Source of the DNA: Amphiura filiformis
Lineage: Eukaryota > Echinodermata > Ophiuroidea > Amphilepidida > Amphiuridae
Direction of reading: 5' to 3'
Length of the DNA stretch: 64,000 bases
NCBI RefSeq assembly: GCF_039555335.1
Contig: NC_092628.1
Span: 77,874,713-77,938,712 of the forward strand
Shown here: one piece after another, positions 12,220 to 41,690 of the stretch
Layout of the letters: every line of letters begins with the position of its first letter
How positions within the stretch are numbered: position 1 is the stretch's first letter
Program-made: the position numbers and the translations under genes
The notes under the pieces: model-generated
The model's input: the letters and a program-made list of their open reading frames with translations, nothing else
Databases searched by the model: none
Told to the model about the DNA's origin: nothing

Positions 12220-12386
12220 GGGGAGGGGCAAGAGGGGGCAAGACTTCTAACGGGGGGAGCTGTCCCCTTGCCCTGGCTACGCCACTGTAGCTACCTCTCT
12301 ATCCCTGACCTGAACCAGCTAAGATGCGAAATATCCGCAGGTCATGCAGGTAGGCGATTTTAACAATCCTACATAAATAAGCTTAA

Positions 12387-12735: not shown

Positions 12736-12739
12736 TTAA

Positions 12740-17835: not shown

Positions 17836-18149
17836 GATTGACTACTATTATAGACATAGATGAGACGACAACAATCTCAGATTTGGCAAATGCACAAAGA
17901 TGATTGAGGCATCTTGAGTCGGCGATGACCATGATAACTATTATCTTATTATTTTTTTTAAATTTGAGTATGCTGAATTCACATTTACTCAGGTTTACAA
18001 GTTGTATTTGATTATGATCCTCCAAAAAATTACCTCCAAAATACAAAGTATAAATTTAACGTCATTTGAGACTAACCTCCCTAATTTTTCTATTATAATG
18101 TCATATAGCCGCCGCCGCCGCCGCCTTCGGTCTATAGATGGATGATAAT
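17836..18149. other. Gene-free stretch with (GCC)n
   Basis: No gene is seen. A short GCC trinucleotide run lies at about 18108-18126. Confidence 0.4.
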
Positions 18150-18800
18150 GACCTACAGCCCTTCTTGAATGACATGGCTTCCATGTAGGTGGAACAGAAC
18201 CCTGATCGAGTGAAACTTGACAGAGAAGCGTGATGGCTGGTCAACTTCTTCAGCTATTTGTTTCAGCAGCATGGCTGGGACACCATCTGGACCAAGTATG
18301 GGCCTCAGTTCACTTTTCATTGGCGGATGGAGACCAGGTCGAATGTTAGGAAGCTCAGCGGTTTCATCATTGGTGAAAACTGATGAGAACTGGCGGTTCA
18401 AGATGGTGGTTTCACTGGTTTGGACAACATGTCACTGGGCAGCAGGTTGCCTTCTTTGAGCATGTTGAGGTAGTGCTACACCGGCCTGATCACAGCGCCT
18501 AGCTTTAATCAGAGCTCCCAGTCCCTTGTTGTTTCCTGGGTCGCTACATTTCATGTTGGTTAGGTATATAGTTGCTGTAAGTCTGACGGTACTCTGTCTG
18601 CGACTCCTTCAAACGCCTGTAACTGAGCCAGTCTCTCTGCTTGTTGGTCTTGCGGGCTGTCTTGAAGGCACGAGCTTTTCTGCGGCTAGCTCTTTTGGTG
18701 GCAGTACTAAACTGCGGTTGGTTAAAGCTAGAGCTGATGAATTTAGATGCTATGCTCTCCTCGAATGGCTTCACCAGGAAGTCTTTGATCTTAACTAAAG
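18150..18800 (-). pseudogene. Remnant of another LINE, linker between endonuclease and RT
   Basis: The upstream part (18790-18544) reads SSSFNQPQFSTATKRASRRK, RAFKTARKTNKQRDWLSYRR and LKESQTEYRQTYSNYI, the basic linker seen after the endonuclease in many LINE ORF2 proteins. The downstream part (18401-18153) reads NRQFSSVFTNDETAELP and GPDGVPAMLLKQIAEEV, matching the conserved 'LN.QF.SVFT' and 'GPDGIP...L' stretch before the RT core. Intervening frames are broken and the RT core is absent. It differs from the CR1/L2-type copies at 8.6-16.2 kb, so it comes from another lineage. Confidence 0.7.
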
Positions 18801-18899
18801 ATATTAACAGGAGTAAGAGTGGAGTAGATATGAAGTCTTCAGCCCAGAGCTTAGTTTCAGATCTTATATCAGCAAAGCCTACATGTTCCACAAAAATAT

Positions 18900-21079: not shown

Positions 21080-21740
21080 TTCATTGTTTGGGTATTTTAA
21101 CGCCACGACTAAACATAACCAAATAATTGGTGTGGTTGAGGAATAAATCAGCTATCATATACTTTTTGATTTTTGACAATTAACCTCAACGTTCTTGAAA
21201 TATAAGAATTTTATGAAACTAACTCATTTTCAAACCTTTCCAGAGATTCAATCGATGATCTGTATTCGCAGTGTAATCACTGCGCATCATCACAGTTAGC
21301 AGCCTGGACAACCGATTCTTTTGTTTAGCAAGGCTCACTCAGTCATTTAATGTGGCAATACAAACGATCGAATTTGGTGTTGAAACGAGCTAAATTTTGA
21401 GTTACACCTTTTCAATGTAAAATTAATTTTCTCGGCCAAATGAAATGCAATCATTTTCATTTTTTCAGTAAATGTCAGGTCAAATTGTAGTGCTTGATAC
21501 TTATTTTTTTTTTTTCAAATCCTAGTGTTAAACTTAGGCGTGAAATTCAGTCATTTCGTGTAAGATTTTCGATTTTGATAGGCTTAAACTCTGCCCGCGA
21601 GCCTTTTCTTGGATCAACCTTTTACCTTTTCAAAGTAATATAGTACGCTAATGAAGGATTTTTCCCAACTTTCTAACGCACATCACCGCGAGCGATATAT
21701 CATAGTTTTGTCAGAATTTACGTTTTGATTTCACCATTTT
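21080..21740 (+). repeat. Left arm of a diverged 0.6-kb inverted repeat flanking the array
   Basis: Read on the plus strand it aligns with the reverse complement of about 39640-40250. Shared anchors include CCTGGACAACCGATTCTTT, TCATATACTTTTTGA against TCACATACTTTTTGA, ACTCATTTTCAA against CCTCATTTTCAA, and AAATTAATTTTCTCGG. I judge identity at about 70% by eye. No coding potential is seen. Confidence 0.7.
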
Positions 21741-22194
21741 TTCACCGGCTGAAATTTTTTCAAAATCAACGCGTGAAATATAAGGCTAATAATACTAGCA
21801 TTGTGGATCGATATCCCTGGGTTTAATAGGAATACCGGCATGATACAGTGTTGCCAGAACTTCAATATAGCAACGAAATTCCCAGGCCTAATAGCGCTCC
21901 TATACTGATCATGTTTATAGCACGATGAGGATATTTCATCATCACGTGAGTGATTCGGACCAATGTGTTGAAATTTACTTCTCCTCAAAACAACTTTGCC
22001 CGAAGGCTTACATGCAATTGGGCAATATTTTAAACAAAACTTTCTTTTACAAAACATTATATTACGCTGTATGTTTTATGATCAAGCAAACTGTTTGGAA
22101 CACACTTCCAAAGAAATAACCTTCGTAACGCCCCGGCGTAACGCCCCAGACTTTCGTTATTTAAACGCCAGAAATAGATTGTCCTTATAAGAAC

Positions 22195-22435
22195 CATCAG
22201 AGATTGTGGCTTATAAGAACCGTTCATTATCATTGTTAACTGAAACAGGTTTTTGTTTTTAAACATCTTTATAAATTGATTGTTTTTATGTTTGTTTGTA
22301 AATTTCGTGCTTTACGCGCTTTGAGTTCCTCATCAGAGATTGTGCCTTATAAGAACCATTCATTTTCATTGTTAACTTAAACAGGTTTTTGTTTTTAAAC
22401 AAAAACCTGTTCAAGCAATTATTTAAAATTGCTTG
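22195..22435. repeat. Duplicated LINE-tail-like segment plus two hairpins
   Basis: A roughly 70-bp phrase (starting CATCAGAGATTGTGGCTTAT) at 22195-22264 recurs at 22331-22400 with few changes, 136 bp apart. It resembles CR1/L2 3' ends (GCGCTTTGAGTTCCTCATCA precedes the second copy). The second copy runs into a hairpin at 22381-22410 (14-bp arms ACAGGTTTTTGTTT) and then another at 22412-22435 (CAAGCAATT...AATTGCTTG). Confidence 0.65.
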
Positions 22436-23117
22436 CCTAAAAACAGAATAACTTGGATGTTAATACTTGACGTAGTGTTTCAATTGTCATGAAGGTGACT
22501 GGGTATGGTGCCTTTTGTTTGTGTTTGTTTGAAACTGCTTTTGGAAACCCACCGAAAGTCATAGGCCCTAATGAAGCAGCCAAAACAATACCAGGTTAAA
22601 CATGGAAGTTTATAAAAACTTATTAAATAACCGTAAGGAAAAAAAAAACATTTGTGGCAACAATAAGCCTTGCATTGAAAGTCATGGTTAAAGTGTGTTG
22701 ATTACCACACCAAAGTTTCCCTACATACACCCCACTACCCACCTTACACACCTCTGCACCCACCCCACCCTATAGGCCTACATGTACATGATATTACATA
22801 ATAATATATAGCATAGCTATACATTTAGGTATAGCGCTTAATTATGACAAATATGGTTAGGCCTATATATAGGCCTACATGTCAAATTAAAACAAACCCG
22901 AACACTGATGAATCTCTACAGAAACCCGAACACAAGTCTGAAGGGTGTAATGAAAATGGCAACCCGCGATGGGGGGGGGGGGGGTAGGTCATACAAAATT
23001 CACATGGAGATAGGAGGGACAGAAGATTAAAATCCCCTATAATAACACGCTAATTTTTCTAGGTTTGGACCGTGGATTTTCATGAACCTCAAGCGTGCGT
23101 CTCTTAATACGGACTAA
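22436..23117. other. Gene-free stretch
   Basis: No gene is seen. A G run of about 14 bases lies at 22971-22984. The last three bases, TAA (23115-23117), match the TAA after the array's right end. Confidence 0.45.
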
Positions 23118-23395
23118 CCTACAATCAACGAAAAAAGTCTTGGAACGCTTGCGTGTAAATAACGGAAAACTGTCACCCCTCTCCCCCGTGCAATGTTGAG
23201 AAATGCCAATGTCTTCAGCGGTTCCCCAATGTGTTCCAACATTGCTTGATGGGGAGAGGGGAAGGGTAAATCATTGTTGTAGATGTCATGTTTCTTCTCA
23301 AACACAGTATAGGTCATTTCCATGAACATAAGAAATTCTGCACGGAATTTCGACAGAGTGTGCCAAGCGTTCCAAGGACTTTTTTCGTTGATTGT
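23118..23395 (+). repeat. Spacer S1 (array left end)
   Basis: It has outer inverted ends (CAATCAACGAAAAAAGTCTT / GACTTTTTTCGTTGATTG) and an inner inverted pair around CTCTCCCCCGTGCAATGTTG and CAACATTGCTTGATGGGGAG, so the single strand can fold almost end to end. It is non-coding, although open frames cross it on the minus strand. Confidence 0.8.
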
Positions 23396-23439
23396 CTCTA
23401 CATATTGCAAAATATTTCATCTAAATTTCGTTTTTGTCT

Positions 23440-24047
23440 CATAACTCAAAAACGGAATGTCGTATGAGCTTCAAATTTCACACGATTTGAGAGTGGATTA
23501 TATACTTTGCAATCATAATAACATTGTTGATAAAGAATTTGGTTTATTTAGGGAGTGGTCACCGAAAACACCCCATATGCTAAATTACACACGTTTCATA
23601 ATTATGGCTCTAAACTGCTCTAAAATGTCGTTTTTGTCCATAACTCAAAAACTGAATGTTGTATGAGCTTCATATTGCACACGATTTGAGAGGGGATTAT
23701 ATGCTTTGCAATCATAATAAAATTGTTGATAAAGAATATGGTTTATTTAGGGAGTGGTCACTGAAACCACCTCATATGCTAAATTACACACGTTTTATAA
23801 TTATGGCTCTAAACTGCTCTAAAATGTCGTTTTTGTCCATAACTCAAAAGCAGAATGTTGTATGAGCTTCATATTGCACACGATTAGAGAGTAGATAATA
23901 TCCTTTTGAATCATAATAAAATTGTTGATAAAAATGTTGAGTTATTTAGGGAGTGGTCACTGACAACACCTCCTTTGCTAAATGACACAAGTTTTGTAAT
24001 TATGGCCCTCTTCTGTATGATACTGAGTCAATTTTCGTTTTTGTCTC
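23440..24047 (+). repeat. 199-bp tandem subrepeats within unit U1
   Basis: The phrase CATAACTCAAAAACGGAATG (with variants) starts at 23440, 23639, 23838 and 24047, giving periods of 199, 199 and 209. Each copy contains CACACGATT.GAGAG, CATAATAA.ATTGTTGATA and TTTAGGGAGTGGTCAC. The period is not a multiple of three, so the 69-residue open frames in each copy cannot form one continuous protein. The same set occurs in every unit. Confidence 0.8.
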
Positions 24048-24364
24048 ATAACTCAAAAACACTACAAATGCATTTTTCGTACAATATCGCAATGTTTTGC
24101 AGCATGTTTTCCAAAATGTTTTTTTGAATGTTATTAAAACGTTTGGTACCCTTTATGATATAACCTAACGTGTAAAATTTATGTTTTCTCTAAAACTTGT
24201 GTTTGCTGAGTATAGGCACATCCGAGCGAATCAGAAAGATTATGATGTAACAATTTGAAACAACTCATTTCTGAATATTATTTATAACAAAATACGGCTT
24301 TGCGATGAGAAAAAAATTAAATAAAAAAGAAACAACAATTTGATACACTTAAAGAAAAAATATA

Positions 24365-24450
24365 GACCACCATTGGGACTCGAACCATGCACATCAGTCA
24401 ATAGCCAAAAGGTTAACAGTCTGAGGACTAATCCGCTACGCCACGCTGCC
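24365..24450 (-). ncRNA. tRNA-like Pol III unit, U1 minus copy
   Basis: A-box TGGCGTAGCGG, B-box GGTTCGAGTCC, then TCTATATTTTTT. The anticodon-arm-like stretch reads CTGTTAACC, as in tRNA-Asn(GTT), but the acceptor ends (GGCAGCG / GGTGGTC) do not pair, so this is not a canonical tRNA. Confidence 0.6.
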
Positions 24451-24755
24451 ATTTCGAATCGAAATAAATATATTGTGTTTTTTTCAATAGTCAAAATCGG
24501 TAAAGTGTTAAAAATTTATATATAGAAATCAATGTTTCATTTTTTGCATAAAACATTTTTAATTGGTATAGCAAATGTAAACGAACGTGACGCTTCATTA
24601 GATGCGGCCTCAAAAACATAAAATGTCGATTTTGGACCATTTTGTCATTATGGTAAACTGATACATGTAACCATTTCAAGCATAAAGTTTACACTTTCCC
24701 TTATGATACCTGACTACTATAAAAGAACACAACTTGTTACTTTCGATTGCGAAAT

Positions 24756-24837
24756 GGCAGCGTGGCGTAGCGGATTAGTCCTCAGACGGATAACCTTTTG
24801 ACTATTGACCGATGTGGTTCGAGTCCCATTGGTGGTC
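24756..24837 (+). ncRNA. tRNA-like Pol III unit, U1 plus copy 1
   Basis: Same A- and B-boxes. This 82-nt form has GACGGATAACC in the middle, lacks the 4-5 nt before the B-box found in the longer form, and is followed by seven T. Confidence 0.6.
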
Positions 24838-25166
24838 TTTTTTTAAAAGTATATTCAATTGTTGTTTTCTTTTTTCTTCTCTTGTTTTTTTTTCTCATCG
24901 CAAAAGCGTATTTTAATATAAATAATATTCAGAAATGAGTTGTTTATGCGTATTTATTTCAATTGAAATTGGTAAACGTAACTGTTAACAAATTTCATAT
25001 ATGAAACGAATGTTTCATTCCTTTTGCAATAAAACATTTTCAATTGGTATAGCAAATGTAAACGAACGTGACGCTTCGTGAGATGCGGCCTAAAAACATA
25101 AAATGTCGATTTTGAACCATTTTGTCATTATGGTAAACTGATACATTTTGCTGTTTCTACTATAGG

Positions 25167-25362
25167 GTGCTTGCATGGAAGATCATAAAGTTCAAACCAT
25201 CCTAAAGACACGCGCCAGAGGACATGCAAATGCACGGAGTACAATACCAATCACCTGTTTAACTGGTTTTGATCAAAGTAATTCTTTGTACTCCATGCAT
25301 TTGCATATCTTATGGAGCGTGTCTGGAGGATGATTTGAACTCATGACCTTTCGTGCAAGCAC
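25167..25362. repeat. 196-bp hairpin in U1
   Basis: Arms start GTGCTTGCATGGAAGATCAT and end ATGACCTTTCGTGCAAGCAC; pairing continues through CATGCAAATGCACGGAGTAC / GTACTCCATGCATTTGCAT. Each arm carries an octamer (ATGCAAAT). The same 196-bp length occurs in the other four units (28082, 31320, 34591, 37924), and the sequence appears unchanged by eye. The right arm read on the minus strand has a weak B-box-like GAGTTCAAATC. Confidence 0.75.
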
Positions 25363-25434
25363 TCTTCAAGTTTACACTTTCCCCGATACCTGACTACTAT
25401 AAAAGAACAAAACTTGTTACTTCGATTGCGAAAT

Positions 25435-25521
25435 GGCAGCGTGGCGTAGCGGATTAGTCCTCAGACTGATAACCTTTTGACTATTGACCGATGTGAATGG
25501 TTCGAGTCCCAGTGGGTGGTC
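25435..25521 (+). ncRNA. tRNA-like Pol III unit, U1 plus copy 2
   Basis: The 87-nt form: CTGATAACC in the anticodon-arm position, AAT before GGTTCGAGTCC, and TTTTG after the end. Confidence 0.6.
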
Positions 25522-26231
25522 TTTTGTTTTCAAAAGTATATTAAATTGTGGTTTTTTTTCTTGTTTTTTCTCATCGCAAAAGCGTGTTTTAATATAAATA
25601 ATATTCAGAAATGAGTTGTTTCAAATTGTTACATCATAATCTTTCTGATTCGCTCAGATATGCCTATACTCAGCATACACAAGTTTTCCAGAAAACATTT
25701 ATATATGCCTATACTCAGCAAACACAAGTTTTAGAGAAAACATTTGCATGTTGGGTTATATCATAAAGGGTACAAAATGTTTTAAGTTTTAATAACATTG
25801 AAAATATTTTGGAAACATGCTGCAAAACATTGTGATATTATAAAAAAAATGTATTTGTAGTGTTTTTGAGTTACGAGACAAAAACGAAATTTGACTACAG
25901 TAGAGGGCATAATTACGAAACTTGTGTAATTTAGCATAGGAGATATTTTCAGTGACCACTCCCTGAATAACCCAACATTTTTATCAACAATTTTATTATG
26001 ATTCAAAAGGATATTATCTACTCTCAAATCTGGTGCAATATGAAACTCATACAACATTCTGTTTTTGAGTTATGGACAAAAACGACATTTTAGAGCATTG
26101 ATTAAGAAACGTGAGTAATTTAGCATAGGGGGTGTTTCCAATGACCACTCCCTAAATAAACCAAATTCTTTATCAACAATTTTATTATGATTACAAAGCG
26201 TATAATCCACTCTCAAATCGTGTGCAATTTC

Positions 26232-26389
26232 AAGCTCATACGACATTCCGTTTTTGAGTTATGAGACAAAAACGAAATTTAGATGAAATATTTTGCATTC
26301 GGTAGAGACATGTCTCTACCGAATGCAAAATATTTCATCTAAATTTCGTTTTTGTCTCATAACTCAAAAACGGAATGTCGTATGAGCTT
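26232..26389. repeat. 158-bp perfect palindrome at the U1/U2 junction
   Basis: The centre is GTAGAGACA|TGTCTCTAC between 26310 and 26311. The two 79-bp halves are exact reverse complements by eye out to GAGCTT. The spacer expected here is missing. Elsewhere units start CTCTACATATTGC, but U2 starts CTCTACCGAATGC, the exact inverse of the U1 end. Confidence 0.8.
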
Positions 26390-27281
26390 CAAATTTCACA
26401 CGATTTGAGAGTGGATTATATACTTTGCAATCATAATAACATTGTTGATAACGAGTTTGGTTTATTTATAAAGTGGTCACCGAAAACACCCCATATGCTA
26501 AATTACACACGTTTCATAATTATGGCTCTAAACTGCTCTAAAATGTCGTTTTTGTCCATAACTCAAAAACTGAATGTTGTATGAGCTTCATATTGCACAC
26601 GATTTGAGAGGGGATTATATGCTTTGCAATCATAATAAAATTGTTGATAAAGAATATGGTTTATTTAGGGAGTGGTCACTGAAACCACCTCATATGCTAA
26701 ATTACACACGTTTTATAATTATGGCTCTAAACTGCTCTAAAATGTCGTTTTTGTCCATAACTCAAAAGCAGAATGTTGTATGAGCTTCATATTGCACACG
26801 ATTAGAGAGTAGATAATATCCTTTTGAATCATAATAAAATTGTTGATAAAAATGTTGAGTTATTTAGGGAGTGGTCACTGACAACACCTCCTTTGCTAAA
26901 TGACACAAGTTTTGTAATTATGGCCCTCTTCTGTATGATACTGAGTCAATTTTCGTTTTTGTCTCATAACTCAAAAACACTACAAATGCATTTTTCGTAC
27001 AATATCGCAATGTTTTGCAGCATGTTTTCCAAAATGTTTTTTGAATGTTATTAAAACGTTTGGTACCCTTTATGATATAACCTAACGTGTAAAATTTATG
27101 TTTTCTCTAAAACTTGTGTTTGCTGAGTATAGGCACATCCGAGCGAATCAGAAAGATTATGATGTAACAATTTGAAAAAACTCATTTCTGAATATTATTT
27201 ATAACAAAATACGCTTTTGCGATGAGAAAAAAATAAAAGAAAAAAGAAACAACAATTTAATACACTTAAAAAAAAAATATA

Positions 27282-27366
27282 GACCACCATTGGGACTCGA
27301 ACCATGCACATCAGTCAATAGCCAAAAGGTTAACAGTCTGAGGACTTTCCGCTACGCCACGCTGCC
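27282..27366 (-). ncRNA. tRNA-like Pol III unit, U2 minus copy
   Basis: One base shorter than the other minus copies, with a changed D-arm region (GCGGAAAGTCC); the B-box is intact. Confidence 0.55.
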
Positions 27367-27672
27367 ATTTTGAATTGAAATAAATATATATGCGTATTTC
27401 TTTCAATTCAAAATGGTAAAGTGTTAACAAATTTCATATATGAAATCAATGTTTCATTCCTTTTGCATTAAAACATTTTTAATTGGTATAGCAAATGTAA
27501 ACGAACGTGACGCTTCATTAGATGCGGCCTCAAAAACATAAAATGTCGATTTTGGACCATTTTGTCATTATGGTAAACTGATACACTTAACCATTTCAAG
27601 TATACAAGTTTACACTTTCCTCGATACCTGACTACTATAAAAGAACACAACTTGTTACTTCGATTGCGAAAT

Positions 27673-27754
27673 GGCAGCGTGGCGTAGCGGATTAGTCCTC
27701 AGACTGATAACCTTTTGACTATTGACCGATGTGGTTCGAGTCCCATTGGTGGTC
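27673..27754 (+). ncRNA. tRNA-like Pol III unit, U2 plus copy 1
   Basis: The short (82-nt) form, but with CTGATAACC instead of CGGATAACC; followed by a T run. Confidence 0.6.
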
Positions 27755-28351
27755 TTTTTTAAAAAGTATATTCAATTGTTGTTTTTTTTTCTTCTCTTGT
27801 TTTTTTTTCTCATCGCAAAAGCGTATTTTAATATAAATAATATTCAGAAATGAGTTGTTTATGCGTATTTATTTCAATTGAAATTGGTAAACGTAACTGT
27901 TAACAAATTTCATATATGAAACGAATGTTTCATTCCTTTTGCAATAAAACATTTTCAATTGGTATAGCAAATGTAAACGAACGTGACGCTTCGTGAGATG
28001 CGGCCTAAAAACATAAAATGTCGATTTTGAACCATTTTGTCATTATGGTAAACTGATACATTTTGCTGTTTCTACTATAGGGTGCTTGCATGGAAGATCA
28101 TAAAGTTCAAACCATCCTAAAGACACGCGCCAGAGGACATGCAAATGCACGGAGTACAATACCAATCACCTGTTTAACTGGTTTTGATCAAAGTAATTCT
28201 TTGTACTCCATGCATTTGCATATCTTATGGAGCGTGTCTGGAGGATGATTTGAACTCATGACCTTTCGTGCAAGCACTCTATACAAGTTTACACTTTCCC
28301 CGATACCTGACTACTATAAAAGAACAAAACTTGTTACTTCGATTGCGAAAT

Positions 28352-28438
28352 GGCAGCGTGGCGTAGCGGATTAGTCCTCAGACTGATAACCTTTTGACTA
28401 TTGACCGATGTGAATGGTTCGAGTCCCAGTGGGTGGTC
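28352..28438 (+). ncRNA. tRNA-like Pol III unit, U2 plus copy 2
   Basis: The long (87-nt) form, matching the second plus copy of U1. Confidence 0.6.
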
Positions 28439-29232
28439 TTTTGTTTTCAAAAGTATATTAAATTGTGGTTTTTTTTTTTTTTTTTTCTCATCGCAAAAGC
28501 GTGTTTTAATATAAATAATATTCAGAAATGAGTTGTTTCAAATTGTTACATCATAATCTTTCTGATTCGCTCAGATATGCCTATACTCAGCATACACAAG
28601 TTTTCCAGAAAACATTTATATATGCCTATACTCAGCAAACACAAGTTTTAGAGAAAACATTTGCATGTTGGGTTATATCATAAAGGGTACAAAATGTTTT
28701 AAGTTTTAATAACATTGAAAATATTTTGGAAACATGCTGCAAAACATTGTGATATTTGTAAAAAAAATGTATTTGTAGTGTTTTTGAGTTACGAGACAAA
28801 AACGAAATTTGACTACAGTAGAGGGCATAATTACGAAACTTGTGTAATTTAGCATAGGAGATATTTTCAGTGACCACTCCTGAATAACCCAACATTTTAT
28901 CAACAATTTTATTATGATTCAGAAGGATATTATCTACTCTCAAATCTGGTGCAATATGAAACTCATACAACATTCTGTTTTTGAGTTATGGACAAAAACG
29001 ACATTTTAGAGCATTTTAGAGCCATGATTAAGAAACGTGAGTAATTTAGCATAGGGGTGTTTCCAATGACCACTCCTAAATAAACCAAATTCTTTATCAA
29101 CAATTTTATTATGATTACAAAGCGTATAATCCACTCTCAAATCGTGTGCAATTTCAAGCTCATACGACATTCCGTTTTTGAGTTATGAGACAAAAACGAA
29201 ATTTAGATGAAATATTTTGCATTCGGTAGAGA

Positions 29233-29504
29233 CAATCAACGAAAAAAGTCTTGGAACGCTTGCGTGTAAATAACGGAAAACTGTCACCCCTCTCCCCGTG
29301 CAATGTTGAGAAATGCCAATGTCTTCAGCGGTTCCCCAATGTGTTCCAACATTGCTTGATGGGGAGAGGGGAGGGTAAATCATTGTTGTAGATGTCATGT
29401 TTCTTCTCAAACACAGTATAGGTCATTTCCATGAACATAAGAAATTCTGCACGGAATTTCGACAGAGTGTGCCAAGCGTTCCAAGGACTTTTTTCGTTGA
29501 TTGT
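29233..29504 (+). repeat. Spacer S between U2 and U3
   Basis: Same orientation and inner hairpin as the array's left spacer; small homopolymer differences (CTCTCCCCG, GGGGAGGGT). Confidence 0.8.
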
Positions 29505-30471
29505 CTCTACATATTGCAAAATATTTCATCTAAATTTCGTTTTTGTCTCATAACTCAAAAACGGAATGTCGTATGAGCTTCAAATTTCACACGATTTGAG
29601 AGTGGATTATATACTTTGCAATCATAATAACATTGTTGATAAAGAATTTGGTTTATTTAGGAGTGGTCACCGAAAACACCCCATATGCTAAATTACACAC
29701 GTTTCATAATTATGGCTCTAAACTGCTCTAAAATGTCGTTTTTGTCCATAACTCAAAAACTGAATGTTGTATGAGCTTCATATTGCACACGATTTGAGAG
29801 GGGATTATATGCTTTGCAATCATAATAAAATTGTTGATAAAGAATATGGTTTATTTAGGGAGTGGTCACTGAAACCACCTCATATGCTAAATTACACACG
29901 TTTTATAATTATGGCTCTAAACTGCTCTAAAATGTCGTTTTTGTCCATAACTCAAAAGCAGAATGTTGTATGAGCTTCATATTGCACACGATTAGAGAGT
30001 AGATAATATCCTTTTGAATCATAATAAAATTGTTGATAAAAATGTTGAGTTATTTAGGAGTGGTCACTGACAACACCTCCTTTGCTAAATGACACAAGTT
30101 TTGTAATTATGGCCCTCTTCTGTATGATACTGAGTCAATTTTCGTTTTTGTCTCATAACTCAAAGACACTACAACTGCATTTTTCGTACAATATCGCAAT
30201 GTTTTGCAGCATGTTTTCCAAAATGTTTTTTGAATGTTATTAAAACGTTTGGTACCCTTTATGATATAACCTAACGTGTAAAATTTATGTTTTCTCTAAA
30301 ACTTGTGTTTGCTGAGTATAGGCACATCCGAGCGAATCAGAAAGATTATGATGTAACAATTTGAAAAAACTCATTTCTGAATATTATTTATAACAAAATA
30401 CGGCTTTGCGATGAGAAAAAAATTAAATAAAAAAGAAACAACAATTTAATACACTTAAAGAAAAAAATATA

Positions 30472-30557
30472 GACCACCATTGGGACTCGAACCATGCACA
30501 TCAGTCAATAGCCAAAAGGTTAACAGTCTGAGGACTAATCCGCTACGCCACGCTGCC
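30472..30557 (-). ncRNA. tRNA-like Pol III unit, U3 minus copy
   Basis: Full 86-nt minus form. It is preceded on its own strand by AACTTGTTACTTCGATTGCG, the leader also found before every plus copy. Confidence 0.6.
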
Positions 30558-30912
30558 ATTTCGCAATCGAAGTAACAAGTTGTGTTCTTTTATAGTAGTC
30601 ACTTTACCATTTTGAATTGAAATAAATATATATGCGTATTTCTTTCAATTCAAAATGGTAAAGTGTTAACAAATTTCATATATGAAATCAATGTTTCATT
30701 CCTTTTGCATTAAAACATTTTTAATTGGTATAGCAAATGTAAACGAACGTGACGCTTCATTAGATGCGGCCTCAAAACATAAAATGTCGATTTTGGACCA
30801 TTTTGTCATTATGGTAAACTGATACACTTAACCATTTCAAGTATACAAGTTTACACTTTCCCGATACCTGACTACTATAAAAGAACACAACTTGTTACTT
30901 CGATTGCGAAAT

Positions 30913-30994
30913 GGCAGCGTGGCGTAGCGGATTAGTCCTCAGACGGATAACCTTTTGACTATTGACCGATGTGGTTCGAGTCCCATTGGTGGTC
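30913..30994 (+). ncRNA. tRNA-like Pol III unit, U3 plus copy 1
   Basis: Short form with CGGATAACC and a T-run terminator. Confidence 0.6.
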
Positions 30995-31589
30995 TTTTTT
31001 AAAAGTATATTCAATTGTTGTTTTTTTTTTCTTCTCTTGTTTTTTTCTCATCGCAAAAGCGTATTTTAATATAAATAATATTCAGAAATGAGTTGTTTAT
31101 GCGTATTTATTTCAATTGAAATTGGTAAACGTAACTGTTAACAAATTTCATATATGAAACGAATGTTTCATTCCTTTTGCAATAAAACATTTTCAATTGG
31201 TATAGCAAATGTAAACGAACGTGACGCTTCGTGAGATGCGGCCTAAAAACATAAAATGTCGATTTTGGACCATTTTGTCATTATGGTAAACTGATACATT
31301 TTGCCGTTTCTACTATAGGGTGCTTGCATGGAAGATCATAAAGTTCAAACCATCCTAAAGACACGCGCCAGAGGACATGCAAATGCACGGAGTACAATAC
31401 CAATCACCTGTTTAACTGGTTTTGATCAAAGTAATTCTTTGTACTCCATGCATTTGCATATCTTATGGAGCGTGTCTGGAGGATGATTTGAACTCATGAC
31501 CTTTCGTGCAAGCACTCTTTACAAGTTTACACTTTCCCCGATACCTGACTACTATAAAAGAACAAAACTTGTTACTTCGATTGCGAAAT

Positions 31590-31676
31590 GGCAGCGTGGC
31601 GTAGCGGATTAGTCCTCAGACTGATAACCTTTTGACTATTGACCGATGTGAATGGTTCGAGTCCCAGTGGGTGGTC
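31590..31676 (+). ncRNA. tRNA-like Pol III unit, U3 plus copy 2
   Basis: Long form, with the same ends as the second plus copy of U1. Confidence 0.6.
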
Positions 31677-32472
31677 TTTTGTTTTCAAAAGTATATTAAA
31701 TTGTGGTTTTTTTCTTGTTTTTCTCATCGCAAAAGCGTGTTTTAATATAAATAATATTCAGAAATGAGTTGTTTCAAATTGTTACATCATAATCTTTCTG
31801 ATTCGCTCAGATATGCCTATACTCAGCATACACAAGTTTTCCAGAAAACATTTATATATGCCTATACTCAGCAAACACAAGTTTTAGAGAAAACATTTGC
31901 ATGTTGGGTTATATCATAAAGGGTACAAAATGTTTTAAGTTTTAATAACATTGAAAATATTTTGGAAACATGCTGCAAAACATTGTGATATTTGTAAAAA
32001 AAATGTATTTGTAGTGTTTTTGAGTTACGAGACAAAAACGAAATTTGACTACAGTAGAGGGCATAATTACGAAACTTGTGTAATTTAGCATAGGAGATAT
32101 TTTCAGTGACCACTCCCTGAATAACCCAACATTTTTATCAACAATTTTATTATGATTCAAAAGGATATTATCTACTCTCAAATCTGGTGCAATATGAAAC
32201 TCATACAACATTCTGTTTTTGAGTTATGGACAAAAACGACATTTTAGAGCATTTTAGAGCCATGATTAAGAAACGTGAGTAATTTAGCATAGGGGGTGTT
32301 TCCAATGACCACTCCCTAAATAAACCAAATTCTTTATCAACAATTTTATTATGATTACAAAGCGTATAATCCACTCTCAAATCGTGTGCAATTTCAAGCT
32401 TATACGACATTCCGTTTTTGAGTTATGAGACAAAAACGAAATTTAGATGAAATATTTTGCATTCGGTAGAGA

Positions 32473-32745
32473 CAATCAACGAAAAAAGTCTTGGAACGCT
32501 TGCGTGTAAATAACGGAAAACTGTCACCCCTCTCCCCGTGCAATGTTGAGAAATGCCAATGTCTTCAGCGGTTCCCCAATGTGTTCCAACATTGCTTGAT
32601 GGGGAGAGGGGAAGGGTAGATCATTGTTGTAGATGTCATGTTTCTTCTCAAACACAGTATAGGTCATTTCCATGAACATAAGAAATTCTGCACGGAATTT
32701 CGACAGAGTGTGCCAAGCGTTCCAAGGACTTTTTTCGTTGATTGT
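32473..32745 (+). repeat. Spacer S between U3 and U4
   Basis: Same orientation as other spacers; one G replaces A in GGGTAGATCATTG. Confidence 0.8.
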
Positions 32746-33712
32746 CTCTACATATTGCAAAATATTTCATCTAAATTTCGTTTTTGTCTCATAACTCAAA
32801 AACGGAATGTCGTATGAGCTTCAAATTTCACACGATTTGAGAGTGGATTATATACTTTGCAATCATAATAACATTGTTGATAAAGAATTTGGTTTATTTA
32901 GGGAGTGGTCACCGAAAACACCCCATATGCTAAATTACACACGTTTCATAATTATGGCTCTAAACTGCTCTAAAATGTCGTTTTTGTCCATAACTCAAAA
33001 ACTGAATGTTGTATGAGCTTCATATTGCACACGATTTGAGAGGGGATTATATGCTTTGCAATCATAATAAAATTGTTGATAAAGAATATGGTTTATTTAG
33101 GAGTGGTCACTGAAACCACCTCATATGCTAAATTACACACGTTTTATAATTATGGCTCTAAACTGCTCTAAAATGTCGTTTTTGTCCATAACTCAAAAGC
33201 AGAATGTTGTATGAGCTTCATATTGCACACGATTAGAGAGTAGATAATATCCTTTTGAATCATAATAAAATTGTTGATAAAAATGTTGAGTTATTTAGGA
33301 GTGGTCACTGACAACACCTCCTTTGCTAAATGACACAAGTTTTGTAATTATGGCCCTCTTCTGTATGATACTGAGTCAATTTTCGTTTTTGTCTCATAAC
33401 TCAAAAACACTACAAATGCATTTTTCGTACAATATCGCAATGTTTTGCAGCATGTTTTCCAAAATCTTTCTTTGAATGTTATTAAAACGTTTGGTACCCT
33501 TTTATGATATAACCTAACGTGTAAAATTTATGTTTTCTCTAAAACTTGTGTTTGCTGAGTATAGGCACATCCGAGCGAATCAGAAAGATTATGATGTAAC
33601 AATTTGAAACAACTCATTTCTGAATATTATTTATAACAAAATACGGCTTTGCGATGAGAAAAAAAGAAAGAAAAAAGAAACAACAATTTAATACACTTAA
33701 AGAAAAAATATA

Positions 33713-33798
33713 GACCACCATTGGGACTCGAACCATGCACATCAGTCAATAGCCAAAAGGTTAACAGTCTGAGGACTAATCCGCTACGCCACGCTGCC
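33713..33798 (-). ncRNA. tRNA-like Pol III unit, U4 minus copy
   Basis: Full 86-nt minus form; its leader is shortened relative to U3. Confidence 0.6.
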
Positions 33799-34184
33799 AT
33801 TTCGCAATCAAGTTGAAGTGTTTTATAGTAGTCAAAGGAATGACACCTTTATATAGAAATTTTAACACTTTTCACCATTTTGAATTGAAATAAATATATA
33901 TGCGTATTTCTTTCAATTCAAAATGGTAAAGTGTTAACAAATTTCATATATGAAATCAATGTTTCATTCCTTTTGCATTAAAACATTTTAATTGGTATAG
34001 CAAATGTAAACGAACGTGACGCTTTTACATTAGATGCGGCCTCAAAAACATAAAATGTCGATTTTGGACCATTTTGTCATTATGGTAAACTGATACACTT
34101 AACCATTTCAAGTATACAAGTTTACACTTTCCCCGATACCTGACTACTATAAAAGAACACAACTTGTTACTTCGATTGCGAAAT

Positions 34185-34266
34185 GGCAGCGTGGCGTAGC
34201 GGATTAGTCCTCAGACGGATAACCTTTTGACTATTGACCGATGTGGTTCGAGTCCCATTGGTGGTC
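34185..34266 (+). ncRNA. tRNA-like Pol III unit, U4 plus copy 1
   Basis: Short form with CGGATAACC and six T after the end. Confidence 0.6.
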
Positions 34267-34858
34267 TTTTTTAAAAGTATATTCAATTGTTGTTTTTTTT
34301 TTCTTCTTTTTTTTTTTCTCATCGCAAAAGCGTATTTTAATATAAATAATATTCAGAAATGAGTTGTTTATGCGTATTTATTTCAATTGAAATTGGTAAA
34401 CGTAACTGTTAACAAATTTCATATATGAAACGAATGTTTCATTCCTTTTGCAATAAAACATTTTCAATTGGTATAGCAAATGTAAACGAACGTGACGCTT
34501 CGTGAGATGCGGCCTAAAAACATAAAATGTCGATTTTGAACCATTTTGTCATTATGGTAAACTGATACATTTTGCTGTTTCTACTATAGGGTGCTTGCAT
34601 GGAAGATCATAAAGTTCAAACCATCCTAAAGACACGCGCCAGAGGACATGCAAATGCACGGAGTACAATACCAATCACCTGTTTAACTGGTTTTGATCAA
34701 AGTAATTCTTTGTACTCCATGCATTTGCATATCTTATGGAGCGTGTCTGGAGGATGATTTGAACTCATGACCTTTCGTGCAAGCACTCTTCAAGTTTACA
34801 CTTTCCCCGATACCTGACTACTATAAAAGAACAAAACTTGTTACTTCGATTGCGAAAT

Positions 34859-34945
34859 GGCAGCGTGGCGTAGCGGATTAGTCCTCAGACTGATAACCTT
34901 TTGACTATTGACCGATGTGAATGGTTCGAGTCCCAGTGGGTGGTC
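34859..34945 (+). ncRNA. tRNA-like Pol III unit, U4 plus copy 2
   Basis: Long form with CTGATAACC. Confidence 0.6.
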
Positions 34946-35740
34946 TTTTGTTTTCAAAAGTATATTAAATTGTGGTTTTTTTTCTTGTTTTTTCTCATCG
35001 CAAAAGCGTGTTTTAATATAAATAATATTCAGAAATGAGTTGTTTCAAATTGTTACATCATAATCTTTCTGATTCGCTCAGATATGCCTATACTCAGCAT
35101 ACACAAGTTTTCCAGAAAACATTTATATATGCCTATACTCAGCAAACACAAGTTTTAGAGAAAACATTTGCATGTTGGGTTATATCATAAAGGGTACAAA
35201 ATGTTTTAAGTTTTAATAACATTGAAAATATTTTGGAAACATGCTGCAAAACATTGTGAAAAAAAAAAAAAATGTATTTGTAGTGTTTTTGAGTTACGAG
35301 ACAAAAACGAAATTTGACTACAGTAGAGGGCATAATTACGAAACTTGTGTAATTTAGCATAGGAGATATTTTCAGTGACCACTCCCTGAATAACCCAACA
35401 TTTTTATCAACAATTTTATTATGATTCAAAAGGATATTATCTACTCTCAAATCTGGTGCAATATGAAACTCATACAACATTCTGTTTTTGAGTTATGGAC
35501 AAAAACGACATTTTAGAGCATTTTAGAGCCATGATTAAGAAACGTGAGTAATTTAGCATAGGGGGTGTTTCCAATGACCACTCCCTAAATAAACCAAATT
35601 CTTTATCAACAATTTTATTATGATTACAAAGCGTATAATCCACTCTCAAATCGTGTGCAATTTCAAGCTCATACGACATTCGTTTTTGAGTTATGAGACA
35701 AAAACGAAATTTAGATGAAATATTTTGCATTCGGTAGAGA

Positions 35741-36011
35741 CAATCAACGAAAAAGTCTTGGAACGCTTGCGTGTAAATAACGGAAAACTGTCACCCCTCT
35801 CCCCGTGCAATGTTGAGAAATGCCAATGTCTTCAGCGGTTCCCCAATGTGTTCCAACATTGCTTGATGGGGAGAGGGAAGGGTAAATCATTGTTGTAGAT
35901 GTCATGTTTCTTCTCAAACACAGTATAGGTCATTTCCATGAACATAAGAAATTCTGCACGGAATTTCGACAGAGTGTGCCAAGCGTTCCAAGGACTTTTT
36001 TCGTTGATTGT
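35741..36011 (+). repeat. Spacer S between U4 and U5
   Basis: Same orientation; the A run in the left inverted end is shorter (CGAAAAAGTC). Confidence 0.8.
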
Positions 36012-36977
36012 CTCTACATATTGCAAAATATTTCATCTAAATTTCGTTTTTGTCTCATAACTCAAAAACGGAATGTCGTATGAGCTTCAAATTTCACACG
36101 ATTTGAGAGTGGATTATATACTTTGCAATCATAATAACATTGTTGATAAAGAATTTGGTTTATTTAGGAGTGGTCACCGAAAACACCCCATATGCTAAAT
36201 TACACACGTTTCATAATTATGGCTCTAAACTGCTCTAAAATGTCGTTTTTGTCCATAACTCAAAAACTGAATGTTGTATGAGCTTCATATTGCACACGAT
36301 TTGAGAGGGGATTATATGCTTTGCAATCATAATAAAATTGTTGATAAAGAATATGGTTTATTTAGGAGTGGTCACTGAAACCACCTCATATGCTAAATTA
36401 CACACGTTTTATAATTATGGCTCTAAACTGCTCTAAAATGTCGTTTTTGCCCATAACTCAAAAGCAGAATGTTGTATGAGCTTCATATTGCACACGATTA
36501 GAGAGTAGATAATATCCTTTTGAATCATAATAAAATTGTTGATAAAAATGTTGAGTTATTTAGGAGTGGTCACTGACAACACCTCCTTTGCTAAATGACA
36601 CAAGTTTTGTAATTATGGCCCTCTTCTGTATGATACTGAGTCAATTTTCGTTTTTGTCTCATAACTCAAAAACACTACAAATGCATTTTTCGTACAATAT
36701 CGCAATGTTTTGCAGCATGTTTTCCAAAATGTTTTTTGAATGTTATTAAAACGTTTGGTACCCTTTATGATATAACCTAACGTGTAAAATTTATGTTTTC
36801 TCTAAAACTTGTGTTTGCTGAGTATAGGCACATCCGAGCGAATCAGAAAGATTATGATGTAACAATTTGAAACAACTCATTTCTGAATATTATTTATAAC
36901 AAAATACGGCTTTGCGATGAGAAAAAAATTAAATAAAAAAGAAACAACAATTTAATACACTTAAAGAAAAAAATATA

Positions 36978-37063
36978 GACCACCATTGGGACTCGAACCA
37001 TGCACATCAGTCAATAGCCAAAAGGTTAACAGTCTGAGGACTAATCCGCTACGCCACGCTGCC
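36978..37063 (-). ncRNA. tRNA-like Pol III unit, U5 minus copy
   Basis: Full 86-nt minus form with the leader ACAACTTGTTACTTGATTGC on its own strand. Confidence 0.6.
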
Positions 37064-37511
37064 ATTTCGCAATCAAGTAACAAGTTGTGTTCTTTATAGT
37101 AGTCAATATGAAAAGGAATGACACCTTGAAAATCTTTTATGTTTTGATATGAAGCGTTTCGTTTACATTTTGCACCAATTTGTTTTACAAAAGGAATGAC
37201 ATTTTGAATTGAAATAAAATATATATATATGCGTATTTCTTTCAATTCAAAATGGTAAAGTGTTAACAAATTTCATATATGAAATCAATGTTTCATTCCT
37301 TTTGCATTAAAACATTTTTAATTGGTATAGCAAATGTAAACGAACGTGACGCTTCATTAGATGCGGCATCAAAAACATAAAATGTCGATTTTGGACCATT
37401 TTGTCATTATGGTAAACTGATACACTTAACCATTTCAAGTATACAAGTTTACACTTTCCCTGATACCTGACTACTATAAAAGAACACAACTTGTTACTTC
37501 GATTGCGAAAT

Positions 37512-37593
37512 GGCAGCGTGGCGTAGCGGATTAGTCCTCAGACGGATAACCTTTTGACTATTGACCGATGTGGTTCGAGTCCCATTGGTGGTC
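37512..37593 (+). ncRNA. tRNA-like Pol III unit, U5 plus copy 1
   Basis: Short form with CGGATAACC followed by a T run. Confidence 0.6.
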
Positions 37594-38193
37594 TTTTTTT
37601 TTAAGTATATTCAATTGTTGTTTTATTTTTTATTTTCTTGTTTTTTTTTTCTCATCGCAAAAGCGTATTTTAATATAAATAATATTCAGAAATGAGTTGT
37701 TTATGCGTATTTATTTCAATTGAAATTGGTAAACGTAACTGTTAACAAATTTCATATATGAAACGAATGTTTCATTCCTTTTGCAATAAAACATTTTCAA
37801 TTGGTATAGCAAATGTAAACGAACGTGACGCTTCGTGAGATGCGGCCTAAAAACATAAAATGTCGATTTTGAACCATTTTGTCATTATGGTAAACTGATA
37901 CATTTTGCTGTTTCTACTATAGGGTGCTTGCATGGAAGATCATAAAGTTCAAACCATCCTAAAGACACGCGCCAGAGGACATGCAAATGCACGGAGTACA
38001 ATACCAATCACCTGTTTAACTGGTTTTGATCAAAGTAATTCTTTGTACTCCATGCATTTGCATATCTTATGGAGCGTGTCTGGAGGATGATTTGAACTCA
38101 TGACCTTTCGTGCAAGCACTCTTTACAAGTTTACACTTTCCCCGATACCTGACTACTATAAAAGAACAAAACTTGTTACTTCGATTGCGAAAT

Positions 38194-38280
38194 GGCAGCG
38201 TGGCGTAGCGGATTAGTCCTCAGACTGATAACCTTTTGACTATTGACCGATGTGAATGGTTCGAGTCCCAGTGGGTGGTC
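38194..38280 (+). ncRNA. tRNA-like Pol III unit, U5 plus copy 2
   Basis: Long form with CTGATAACC and TTTTG after the end. Confidence 0.6.
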
Positions 38281-39075
38281 TTTTGTTTTCAAAAGTATAT
38301 TAAATTGTGGGTTTTTTTCTTGTTTTTTCTCATCGCAAAAGCGTGTTTTAATATAAATAATATTCAGAAATGAGTTGTTTCAAATTGTTACATCATAATC
38401 TTTCTGATTCGCTCAGATATGCCTATACTCAGCATACACAAGTTTTCCAGAAAACATTTATATATGCCTATACTCAGCAAACACAAGTTTTAGAGAAAAC
38501 ATTTGCATGTTGGGTTATATCATAAAGGGTACAAAATGTTTTAAGTTTTAATAACATTGAAAATATTTTGGAAACATGCTGCAAAACATTGTGAAATTAT
38601 AAAAAAATGTATTTGTAGTGTTTTTGAGTTACGAGACAAAAACGAAATTTGACTACAGTAGAGGCATAATTACGAAACTTGTGTAATTTAGCATAGGAGA
38701 TATTTTCAGTGACCACTCCCTGAATAACCCAACATTTTTATCAACAATTTTATTATGATTCAAAAGGATATTATCTACTCTCAAATCTGGTGCAATATGA
38801 AACTCATACAGCATTCTGTTTTTGAGTTATGGACAAAAACGACATTTTAGAGCATTTTAGAGCCATGATTAAGAAACGTGAGTAATTTAGCATAGGGGGT
38901 GTTTCCAATGACCACTCCCTAAATAAACCAAATTCTTTATCAACAATTTTATTATGATTACAAAGCGTATAATCCACTCTCAAATCGTGTGCAATTTCAA
39001 GCTCATACGACATTCCGTTTTTGAGTTATGAGACAAAAACGAAATTTAGATGAAATATTTTGCATTCGGTAGAGA

Positions 39076-39350
39076 CAATCAACGAAAAAAGTCTTGGAAC
39101 GCTTGCGTGTAAATAACGGAAAACTGTCACCCCTCTCCCCGTGCAATGTTGAGAAATGCCAATGTCTTCAGCGGTTCCCCAATGTGTTCCAACATTGCTT
39201 GATGGGGAGAGGGAAGGGTAAATCATTGTTGTAGATGTCATGTTTCTTCTCAAACACAGTATAGGTCATTTCCATGAACATAAGAAATTCTGCACGGAAT
39301 TTCGACAGAGTGTGCCAAGCGTTCCAAGGACTTTTTTCGTTGATTGTAGG
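39076..39350 (+). repeat. Spacer S6 (array right end)
   Basis: Ends with CGTTGATTGTAGG instead of the internal CGTTGATTGTCTC; TAA follows at 39351-39353. Confidence 0.8.
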
Positions 39351-39639
39351 TAATCAAACACACAGACAGACAAAATGGTTTTCATAATCATGGAATGCAT
39401 ATAAATTGAAATTGCAGGCTATCACGGGAGCAAATTTTTAAAATTCACCTCATTTACCAATTGGGGATTTGGGCTACCAAATCGCTAGTCGGGCAATCTT
39501 GATGATCTTTGCTTTTCAATGGAAAATTGCCCTGGATGACAACAATGAAAATATCGACTATTTCTGCTGGTTGCGCACGAGATAAAAGCACCGAGTTTGA
39601 CATTTTCAGAGCATGAAGGGAAAAAGGGTAAAATAAAAC

Positions 39640-40250
39640 GGAAATTCTGACAAAACTATAATATATAGACCCACACGATGTGCTTTACAGAGGTGGGAAA
39701 TATCTTTCTTTAGCAAACTATATTAGTTTGAGACGCTAAAAATCAATTCCGTAAAAAGCTCGCAGGCGAACTCAAGGCCTATAAAAATCAAAAATATCAC
39801 ACTAAAAGATACAATTTGATGCTTAATTTTAACACCAGGATTTAAAAAAAAATGTATATCCAAGCACCAAGTTTTTAACTGACATTACTGAAGAAAAAAA
39901 AATATTGCTTTATATTTGACCGAGAAAATTAATTTCATAGCAAAAAGGTGTATCTCTGAATTGTGCTGATTTTAACATGTATCGATCGACTTTTAGCGCG
40001 ACTAAGCATTTCTAAAGAATCGGTTGTCCAGGTAGGTGACTGATCAGCGCATGAGGCGTCTATTTATTGCCATCGATAGATATTTGACCACGTGGAACTG
40101 ATTGAAAATGAGGTAGTTTCGTATAATTCTTTTATTTCAACAACGAAGCGGTCAATTGACAAAATTCAAAAAGTATGTGATACCTGTTATATTCCTCAAT
40201 GACATCGGCTATTTAGTTATGTTTGGTGTATGCGTTATAATACCAAAATA
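39640..40250 (-). repeat. Right arm of the diverged inverted repeat flanking the array
   Basis: The reverse complement aligns with 21080-21740. It lies 0.3 kb from the array's right end, while the left arm lies 1.4 kb from its left end. No gene is seen in 39354-40250. Confidence 0.7.
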
Positions 40251-41023
40251 CCCTATAAATGATTTTGTAAAATTAAAAAATACATGACGTGAAATGTAAC
40301 CAGGATAGTTTACACCATTTTTGTAATTATTATATATCTTGAAGTAAAATAAAGCTCTAAAACCCAGGATTGATTGCTAAACAGTATTTTTACTTAGAGC
40401 ACATGTAAATTTTTGTTGCAGTTATTTAAAACATTAAAAAAATAAAGCCATATTATAAATTTTCCGAAGAAGACGCCCTCAAGTTTTTTCAAACTACTTG
40501 ATGTTTACGTGATTGTAATGTATTTTAGTAAACTGACATACCCTGCAAAAATCAAGGCTTTTGGTGCCGTAGTGACAAAATCCGAAATTTTGATTAAAAC
40601 AACGGGATACGTCGTTTAATTATTGTGATCGAAATATTAGTCGAACGCATACACGATTCTCATATAATACTGTACGTACACGGTGTGCAGGAAGGTCATA
40701 ACCATCAAAAGTACCGAACTTAGTCATGATAGACAGTGTCGAGCATAGTCTGTGCTACAGACCGTGTACTTATATTATCCATAGGGAGATAAACTACTGG
40801 GAACCACACATTATTGGAAATGCTCGCTCCGCTCGCTATTCGTGGGCCATCGCGGTTTGTGACTCGCAGCTTGTGTTCCCCTAAATCGCGAGTAGTCTTT
40901 GACAAAGACTATGTCGAGCATTGCCAACATTGTGTGCTGGTTTTCTGTGTTTTGCCTTATCTGTGGGTCAAAATTCCATCTCACGTACATGCATTGCTAT
41001 GCACTACGAAGCAGAAAAAACGA
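40251..41023. other. Gene-free stretch downstream of the receptor gene
   Basis: No gene is seen. Around 40724-40750 and 40900-40921 a phrase (ACAGTGTCGAGCATAGTCTG / GACTATGTCGAGCATTGCC) occurs in two variants. Confidence 0.4.
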
Positions 41024-41115
41024 CCTCAAACCCGCGAAATGGCATCTGCCGCAAACGAGCGCAGAAAGATCACAAACCCACGAAACGGCATCCGCCGCAA
41101 ACAGAGCAAAAAGAT
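41024..41115. repeat. Two-copy 46-bp tandem repeat
   Basis: CTCAAACCCGCGAAATGGCA and TCACAAACCCACGAAACGGC start two adjacent copies that both contain GCCGCAAAC. Open frames across it are not supported as genes. Confidence 0.6.
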
Positions 41116-41244
41116 CGCAAAAAAAAGATTCCATAGTTATTTGTCCCACCAAATCAATAATTACTGTCAAAATATGTTACTTAAAGCCATAATACATGAT
41201 AATATAATGCCACTAATATCTATGAAAAACACATTTTAAGCTGC

Positions 41245-41690
41245 TCACAACCACCGTTCTGTGAACAGTTTCCAGGAATTGTTTAATATCTCCATTTCAT
41301 TTTCAAATTCTCGCTCACTTCCTTTAAAAACTATTACAAGTACAGTAACTGTAATAACAACAGTGACTATGCTTAAGACTACCATCAGAAATCTATCCAC
41401 AACGAGAGAAACTAATTTCCAATCATGGCGATTCTGGTTCTCTTCCTCCATCTGATCATAAAAGCATTTGGATGGCAGCTTCTCAGATTCGGTGTCAGCA
41501 GGCTTGGTTTCAGAGTGATGACGGCTTGTTTTGATACCATCCAGGCATGCAAGCCGTGGTAATTTCTGCAATAATAACCAATGCACCCATCCTGGAACAG
41601 GTCTGTGGGAGATGCCATTTATATGTATCACAAAAATGGTTCCAACAACAGTTCCACTCACAATTGTTATCATTGATAGGAAGAAAGAGC
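41245..41690 (-). CDS. nAChR last exon: M3, cytoplasmic loop, M4
   Basis: Acceptor TTTTCCTTCAG. It completes the codon GGC with the previous exon, then [19 protein letters not shown] (M3), a loop ending in [12 protein letters not shown], and [19 protein letters not shown] (M4), with 22 residues to the TGA at 41247-41245. HDWK before M4 is a conserved feature of the family. Confidence 0.85.

Follow-up and report, generated by a model that had tools for sequence, protein, structure and literature searches.

What is the block of repeats, about 16 kb long, that fills positions 23118-39350 of a 64,000-nt stretch of the brittle star Amphiura filiformis genome (hereafter the window), and how did it come to be built as it is? 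The block is an array of two kinds of part, a palindromic unit of roughly 3 kb (U) and a short element with inverted ends (S) that resembles a miniature inverted-repeat transposable element (MITE). It probably represents a non-autonomous, composite-like DNA transposon of the basic form S-U-S that multimerised in place to (S-U)5-S and later lost one S. The ends proposed for the array by an earlier sequence-only reading are exact to the base and fall on outer S tips, CCTACAATC on the left and GATTGTAGG on the right. The G+C content of the window is 35.4%, compared with 36.67% published for A. filiformis (PMC11310086).

Self-BLAST, together with alignments of the units and of the S copies, gives the order of parts as S-U-U-S-U-S-U-S-U-S, and all ten parts (five U, five S) share one orientation, with every S on the forward strand. 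From left to right these are S1 (23118-23394), U1 (23395-26308, 2914 bp), a CATG tetranucleotide (26309-26312), U2 (26313-29232, 2920 bp), S2 (29233-29503), U3 (29504-32472, 2969 bp), S3 (32473-32744), U4 (32745-35740, 2996 bp), S4 (35741-36010), U5 (36011-39075, 3065 bp) and S5 (39076-39350). The units had been described as five near-identical palindromes of 2.9-3.1 kb alternating with inverted-repeat spacers that face the same way. Their size, likeness and direction are borne out; the alternation holds except between U1 and U2, where S is missing, and S also forms both outer ends of the array. Self-BLAST within the array returned 606 rows at a minimum length of 150 bp, every pair appearing twice, while first-order Markov shuffles of the array gave none in 20 of 20 trials; for the window as a whole, 200 of 314 self-repeat rows were examined.

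The cores of the S copies measure 270-273 bp (~277 bp with the tips), and pairs of copies show 0-2 substitutions over 270-272 columns and 0-3 columns with gaps, the outer copies being no less similar to the rest than the inner ones. A solo S lies on the forward strand at 61853-62118 (core 61857-62114) and differs from the copies in the array by 30-31 substitutions over 254-257 columns; its presence, and the inverted ends that S itself carries, agree with the earlier description of the spacer as MITE-like. These ends are 33-35 bp long, and in a comparison of S1 left with S5 right, in a slice starting CTAC, all 33 aligned bases are equal, with one gap. At the left edge of the array TAA (23115-23117) is followed by CCTACAATC, and at the right edge GATTGTAGG is followed by TAA (39351-39353), so that both outer tips, read inward, are CCTACAATC with TAA, a candidate target-site duplication, outside. 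The inner tips read otherwise: U runs into S as GGTAGAGA joined to CAATC (that is, GAGA and CAATC) in all four U-S joints, S runs into U as GATTG joined to TCTC in all four S-U joints, and U abuts the inner copies S2, S3 and S4 at both tips. The solo S has TAA before CCTTCAATC on its left and GATTGTAGA before TGA on its right. Because the solo tips resemble the outer tips of the array and the inner tips differ, it is the outer tips that look like the ends of a free-standing S; with the common 3-bp flank, they suggest that the whole block occupies the site of one S-bounded insertion.

The internal part, U, is a palindrome, apparently older than the array that it builds. Pairwise identity among the five units is 98.1-99.0% over ungapped columns (7-20 substitutions per 2,661-2,673 columns, indel-rich blocks excluded). 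The two halves of one unit are not near-identical: over the outer 455 bp the arms differ at 49-52 of 444-453 columns (~11%) in all five units, and in U5 the arms extend ~1.1 kb at 83-88% identity. Deletions at the palindrome centre distinguish the units, each of which has its own centre length, U5 having the fullest. Tandem Repeats Finder detects the 199-bp subrepeats reported earlier in every unit, where the left arm holds 2.9 copies and the right arm 1.9-2.2; in U1 they occupy 23423-24006 on the forward strand and, as about two inverted copies also seen by self-BLAST, 25861-26283 on the reverse strand, and U2-U5 are arranged likewise. A hairpin previously put at 196 bp is present but measures ~205 bp, is imperfect, lies at 25161-25365 in U1 and has copies in U2-U5 (self-BLAST); it is inverted relative to copies in other units among the matches listed, and is self-inverted in U2 and U5.

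The tRNA-like component of U is weak. No tRNA gene was called at ARAGORN defaults (bacterial code, whole window; standard code, array), and Rfam gave no tRNA family, whether for the window with E values up to 1 or for the centre of U1 with E values up to 10. When the ARAGORN threshold was relaxed to 80%, tRNA-Leu was called in four of the five units, and 11 of the 15 calls were of other kinds. The degenerate, repeated tRNA-Leu-like stretch in U1, known from relaxed ARAGORN only, is at 24747-24837 on the forward strand, and self-BLAST relates it to 24258-24512 (reverse) and 25368-25621 (forward). A reading of the array as an RNA gene or microRNA was rejected: the Rfam matches at the U1-U2 joint are microRNA hairpin models lying on a palindrome. 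None of the 14 Rfam matches in the window reaches its gathering score. The longest stop-to-stop frame in the array is at most 117 amino acids (aa) and neither of the two translated frames tried matched a Pfam family, in keeping with the earlier view of a non-coding, non-autonomous element. No copy of U was found in the window outside the array.

The divergences within and between units bear on how the array grew. Fold-back replication had been offered as the amplifier, yet all five U and all five S point one way, and the arms of a unit are far more diverged (~50 of 453 columns) than the units are from each other (7-20 of ~2,665 columns), which speaks against it. Among 2,626 ungapped columns 29 are variable, of which 26 are private to one unit and 3 are not; the private substitutions number 13 in U2, 5 in U3, 4 in U1, 3 in U5 and 1 in U4. 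Such a star-like pattern suits a single burst, but equally any rapid expansion, so that rolling-circle copying of a U-S circle, in line with the other mechanism put forward, may have been at work. At the neutral rate published for A. filiformis, 1.885e-9 per base and year (PMC11310086), and with gene conversion ignored, the divergence of the units translates into 0.7-2.0 million years and that of the outer arms into ~32 million, so a young array would appear to have been built from an old palindrome and to have undergone some exchange or recurrent indel error afterwards.

The joint between U1 and U2 is the one place where the pattern breaks. It reads GGTAGAGA-CATG-TCTCTACC with no S between, and the 77 bases on each side mirror one another exactly, making a perfect palindrome of 158 bp (26232-26389) centred on CATG; where S separates two units, the mirror symmetry fails at offsets 8, 9 and 11 in all three cases. 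The left tip of U2 is an exact mirror of the right tips. Compared with this tip (26313-26324), the four left U tips that adjoin S, of the five in the array, read CATATTGC instead of CCGAATGC, with three changes clustered within four bases. U1 stands 8 substitutions from U4 and 8 from U5, little more than the 7 that separate those two, so S would more likely have been lost later from a regular array than never have been there. As a possibility only, CATG may be the footprint of a Tc1-type excision, against which counts the lack of TA flanks at the inner S copies.

Taken together, these features would fit a sequence of events beginning with an element of the form S-U-S, in which S is a short terminal-inverted-repeat element serving as a long direct repeat at either end and the interior is formed by U, an ancient foldback-like palindrome of 199-bp subrepeats with tRNA-like remnants and a hairpin. 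The first step would have been the insertion of S-U-S, or else the entry of a U-S circle into an S already present, and it would have produced a 3-bp duplication; growth to (S-U)5-S would then have proceeded by unequal exchange between S copies or by repeated entry of U-S circles through recombination at S. Provided that the published neutral rate applies, and leaving gene conversion aside, multimerisation would date to ~0.7-2 million years ago. The S missing between U1 and U2 may have gone later, through excision or because a hairpin tip was removed, leaving CATG, and local correction may then have turned that joint into a perfect palindrome.

A close parallel in form exists in KolobokP, which has been described in echinoderms of three classes, Asteroidea, Echinoidea and Holothuroidea. 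It occurs as a solo long terminal direct repeat (LTDR), as LTDR-INT-LTDR (INT, internal part), as (LTDR-INT)n-LTDR and as LTDR-(INT)2-LTDR, the solo and multimer forms usually having target duplications (PMC9587614). Its authors, Kojima and Bao (2022), propose two routes, as set out above for this array (PMC9587614). The two systems share long terminal direct repeats with inverted ends of their own (S1-S5 on one strand) around an internal part (U), solo repeats, multimers, abutted internal parts with one repeat missing, and non-autonomous families. The two also differ: S is ~277 bp and the LTDR ~450 or 660 bp; the inverted ends are 33-35 bp rather than 11-18; and where KolobokP termini are 5'-RR...YY-3', the array has CCTAC...GTAGG or CAATC...GATTG, a reading as AATC...GATT fitting RR...YY but leaving no direct duplication outside. 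KolobokP target duplications are 3-5 bp, and the array has TAA at both outer ends, with TA fitting too. No DDD/E transposase or His-Me nuclease is seen in the array, as is also the case in the non-autonomous KolobokP families described there; its internal part is a palindrome; and the U1-U2 joint retains both tips plus CATG, whereas INT-INT joints almost always lose 3-4 bp. The array thus works like KolobokP in shape and forms, yet is not a member by the features compared, because S length, termini and coding content differ.

S was also compared with other known kinds of transposable element. A rolling-circle Helitron or Helentron is ruled out, since such elements are not known to have inverted ends or a duplication and carry a 3' hairpin with CTRR, whereas S has inverted ends of 33-35 bp and terminates in GATTGTAGG. 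Tc1/mariner MITEs duplicate a TA target, and the array has TA on both sides if S starts at CAATC, but the solo S then has TT and TA. PIF/Harbinger MITEs have TWA target duplications and inverted ends (PMC4482050), to which the TAA pair around the array corresponds, but not the TAA and TGA around the solo S.

The arms of U recall foldback elements. Galileo F of Drosophila mojavensis (P superfamily) carries up to three ~210-bp repeats in terminal inverted repeats (TIRs) of 1,264 bp (PMC3573991), comparable, as TIRs longer than 1 kb with direct repeats, to the ~1.1-kb arms of U5 with their 199-bp subrepeats; most Galileo copies have 7-bp duplications and the fuller ones a transposase, whereas U is not accompanied by a duplication and has S or another U as its neighbour at each end. 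Tetris of Drosophila virilis is a non-coding foldback whose TIRs, reaching 1,735 bp in length, contain ~220-bp tandem repeats, and it is associated with a MITE and a satellite (PMC4079207). There the subrepeat is what was amplified into a satellite, and it shares TIR ends with its MITE, while here the repeat is the whole palindrome plus the MITE-like S. No foldback-type duplication of 7-10 bp was seen at the U ends in the array, at any of the eight U-S joints or at the U-U joint, and because U lacks a duplication of its own, membership in the foldback families FB, Galileo and Tetris is not claimed. An echinoderm foldback, TU of a sea urchin, is said to have long repetitive inverted ends. A sea-urchin foldback element is cited in the Tetris report as Lieberman et al. 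1983 (PMC4079207).

Beyond the solo S in the window, three proteins in the database hold pieces of U or S. One of these (P0062, from a 529-bp contig) was found with a 100-aa frame through S and placed on the window by tblastn. It runs from a U arm through a U-S joint, with residues as in the window, and the whole of S into 25-26 residues unmatched in the window; its U-arm part differs at 5 of 36 positions from the left arm of U2 and at 7 of 36 from the right arm of U1, stops counted. The other two hold 113 aa of a U arm at 93% identity (P0060) and 32 aa of the subrepeat at 91% identity, beside sequence unmatched in the window (P0061). A second U-S end with an S-ended flank is thus strongly suggested to exist elsewhere, at the level of protein translation.

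Several observations weigh against a multimerised S-U-S transposon and are collected here. No S-U-S monomer is seen within the window, and the number of copies in the array rests on the assembly. At the outer ends TAA fits as a 3-bp duplication, but TA with a tip of CAATC fits equally; the solo S is flanked by TAA and TGA, or by TT and TA under a CAATC start, and beside the inner S copies target duplications are absent. All three database proteins are conceptual translations of contigs of 529-650 bp, known as protein only; the residues Ser-Thr-Ile at the outer tip of P0062 are permitted by the tip NCTACAATC and only compatible with YCTACAATC, and no relatives were found in viral contigs by three DNA patterns and one protein-guided scan. 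Of 23 small indels listed, 8 split the units with at least two on each side, in conflicting groupings (2 of the 8 lie where the alignment was cut), and U2 and U3 have one substitution pattern in common; because of these, exchange between units after amplification is likely. Lastly, U2 is the most divergent unit, with 16-20 substitutions from the other four, which leaves room for the opposite view that S was never present between U1 and U2.

That view belongs to the rival that survives best, unlikely as we hold it to be: a satellite whose monomer was the palindrome U, with an S that happened to land at a U-U joint and was then co-amplified, U1-U2 being the original joint. The exact mirror at the left tip of U2 is what an ancestral joint should show, the palindrome centre would have offered a symmetric target and so explain the equal inner joints on either side of S, and satellites derived from whole transposons or their parts are known (PMC12628747). 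But the array has S at both ends, where the tips differ from the inner ones and TAA stands outside, P0062 suggests another S-ended flank, and U1 is not the oldest unit, standing 8 substitutions from U4 and from U5, with U2 at 16-20 from all the others. The earlier suggestion of a satellite seeded by a MITE likewise overlooks the S with free-element tips at both outer ends, which points to a multimer of a composite transposon.

It is improbable that U is instead a foldback family whose copies landed side by side, and beside S, through insertion preference and were homogenised later. Arms of 199-bp subrepeats around a non-coding centre do resemble Galileo F and Tetris, and double-insertion dimers are known among fly elements, but no target duplication is seen beside any unit in the array, and U meets S at identical bases in eight of eight joints, which independent insertions would not be expected to produce. 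About as improbable is an assembly artefact, in which fewer real units were stretched by a nanopore assembler or by the joining of haplotypes. The published A. filiformis assembly was made from R9.4.1 reads with Flye and haplotype purging, at 3.22% heterozygosity (PMC11310086), and if the window comes from that assembly, sequencing error may account for the small indels that distinguish units. Against an artefact stand the private changes and individual centre length of every unit, the one joint without S, and the flanks (16001-23118 and 39351-48000), which show no direct duplication, only an inverted repeat. Very improbable is a terminal-repeat retrotransposon in miniature (TRIM) with S as its long terminal repeat (LTR) and tandem copies sharing LTRs: the shape S-U-S-U-S with shared direct repeats would suit it, but LTR elements and TRIMs have TG...CA repeats and 4-6-bp duplications, whereas S ends CAATC...GATTG within inverted ends of 33 bp or more, and the flanks ACCT and AGGT form no direct repeat when S is read as ACAATC...GATTGT. 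Tandem TRIMs and LTR elements have been described (PMC11899658).

The remainder of the window holds other features. The inverted repeat in the flanks (21087-21741 and 39621-40248) is 650 bp long at 72% identity with the array in between, and possibly represents two old transposon copies or a larger old palindrome. Pieces of reverse-transcriptase domains lie in three frames, at 8858-12081 (forward), 13247-14326 (reverse) and 55800-56273 (reverse); the first of these regions has two overlapping frames, the second without a Pfam match, and its frame 8858-11443 is 96% identical to an A. filiformis protein over 56% of the query, 4 of the 59 proteins retrieved with it carrying that species name. A 160-aa frame at 41248-41727 (reverse) matches the Pfam neurotransmitter-gated ion-channel transmembrane region at 27.5 bits, below the cut-off of 28.1, and is perhaps a gene exon adjoining the array. 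A long hairpin at 42131-42264, matching a microRNA model under the gathering score (Rfam), is perhaps another MITE; a 357-bp element at 12383-12739 is self-inverted at 81% identity; and a 127-bp tandem duplication with 99% matches lies at 47971-48226 (Tandem Repeats Finder).

What the array may mean goes beyond its own history. As a tentative and rather doubtful generalisation, S-U could be a composite "paired-end" design outside Kolobok, belonging to another superfamily, in which solo S copies are homing sites for U-S circles that enter by recombination, any solo S could be converted into a growing palindrome array, and the altered inner tips block internal cuts by the transposase so that the block moves whole. 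In bacterial composite transposons, defects of the inner ends make the whole block move as one. A literature search of one open library found no such paired-end design outside Kolobok, nothing on brittle-star satellite DNA and nothing on a palindromic satellite together with foldback elements. If the generalisation is true, the long-direct-repeat design of KolobokP would not be bound to its transposase or homing endonuclease, because it would have arisen here with a non-coding foldback core, and a whole foldback palindrome, beyond its subrepeats, would have been turned into a tandem array. The locus would also be a clean place to study how large palindromes survive, with S at every unit boundary but one, and the sole joint without S being the sole perfect palindrome among the unit boundaries.

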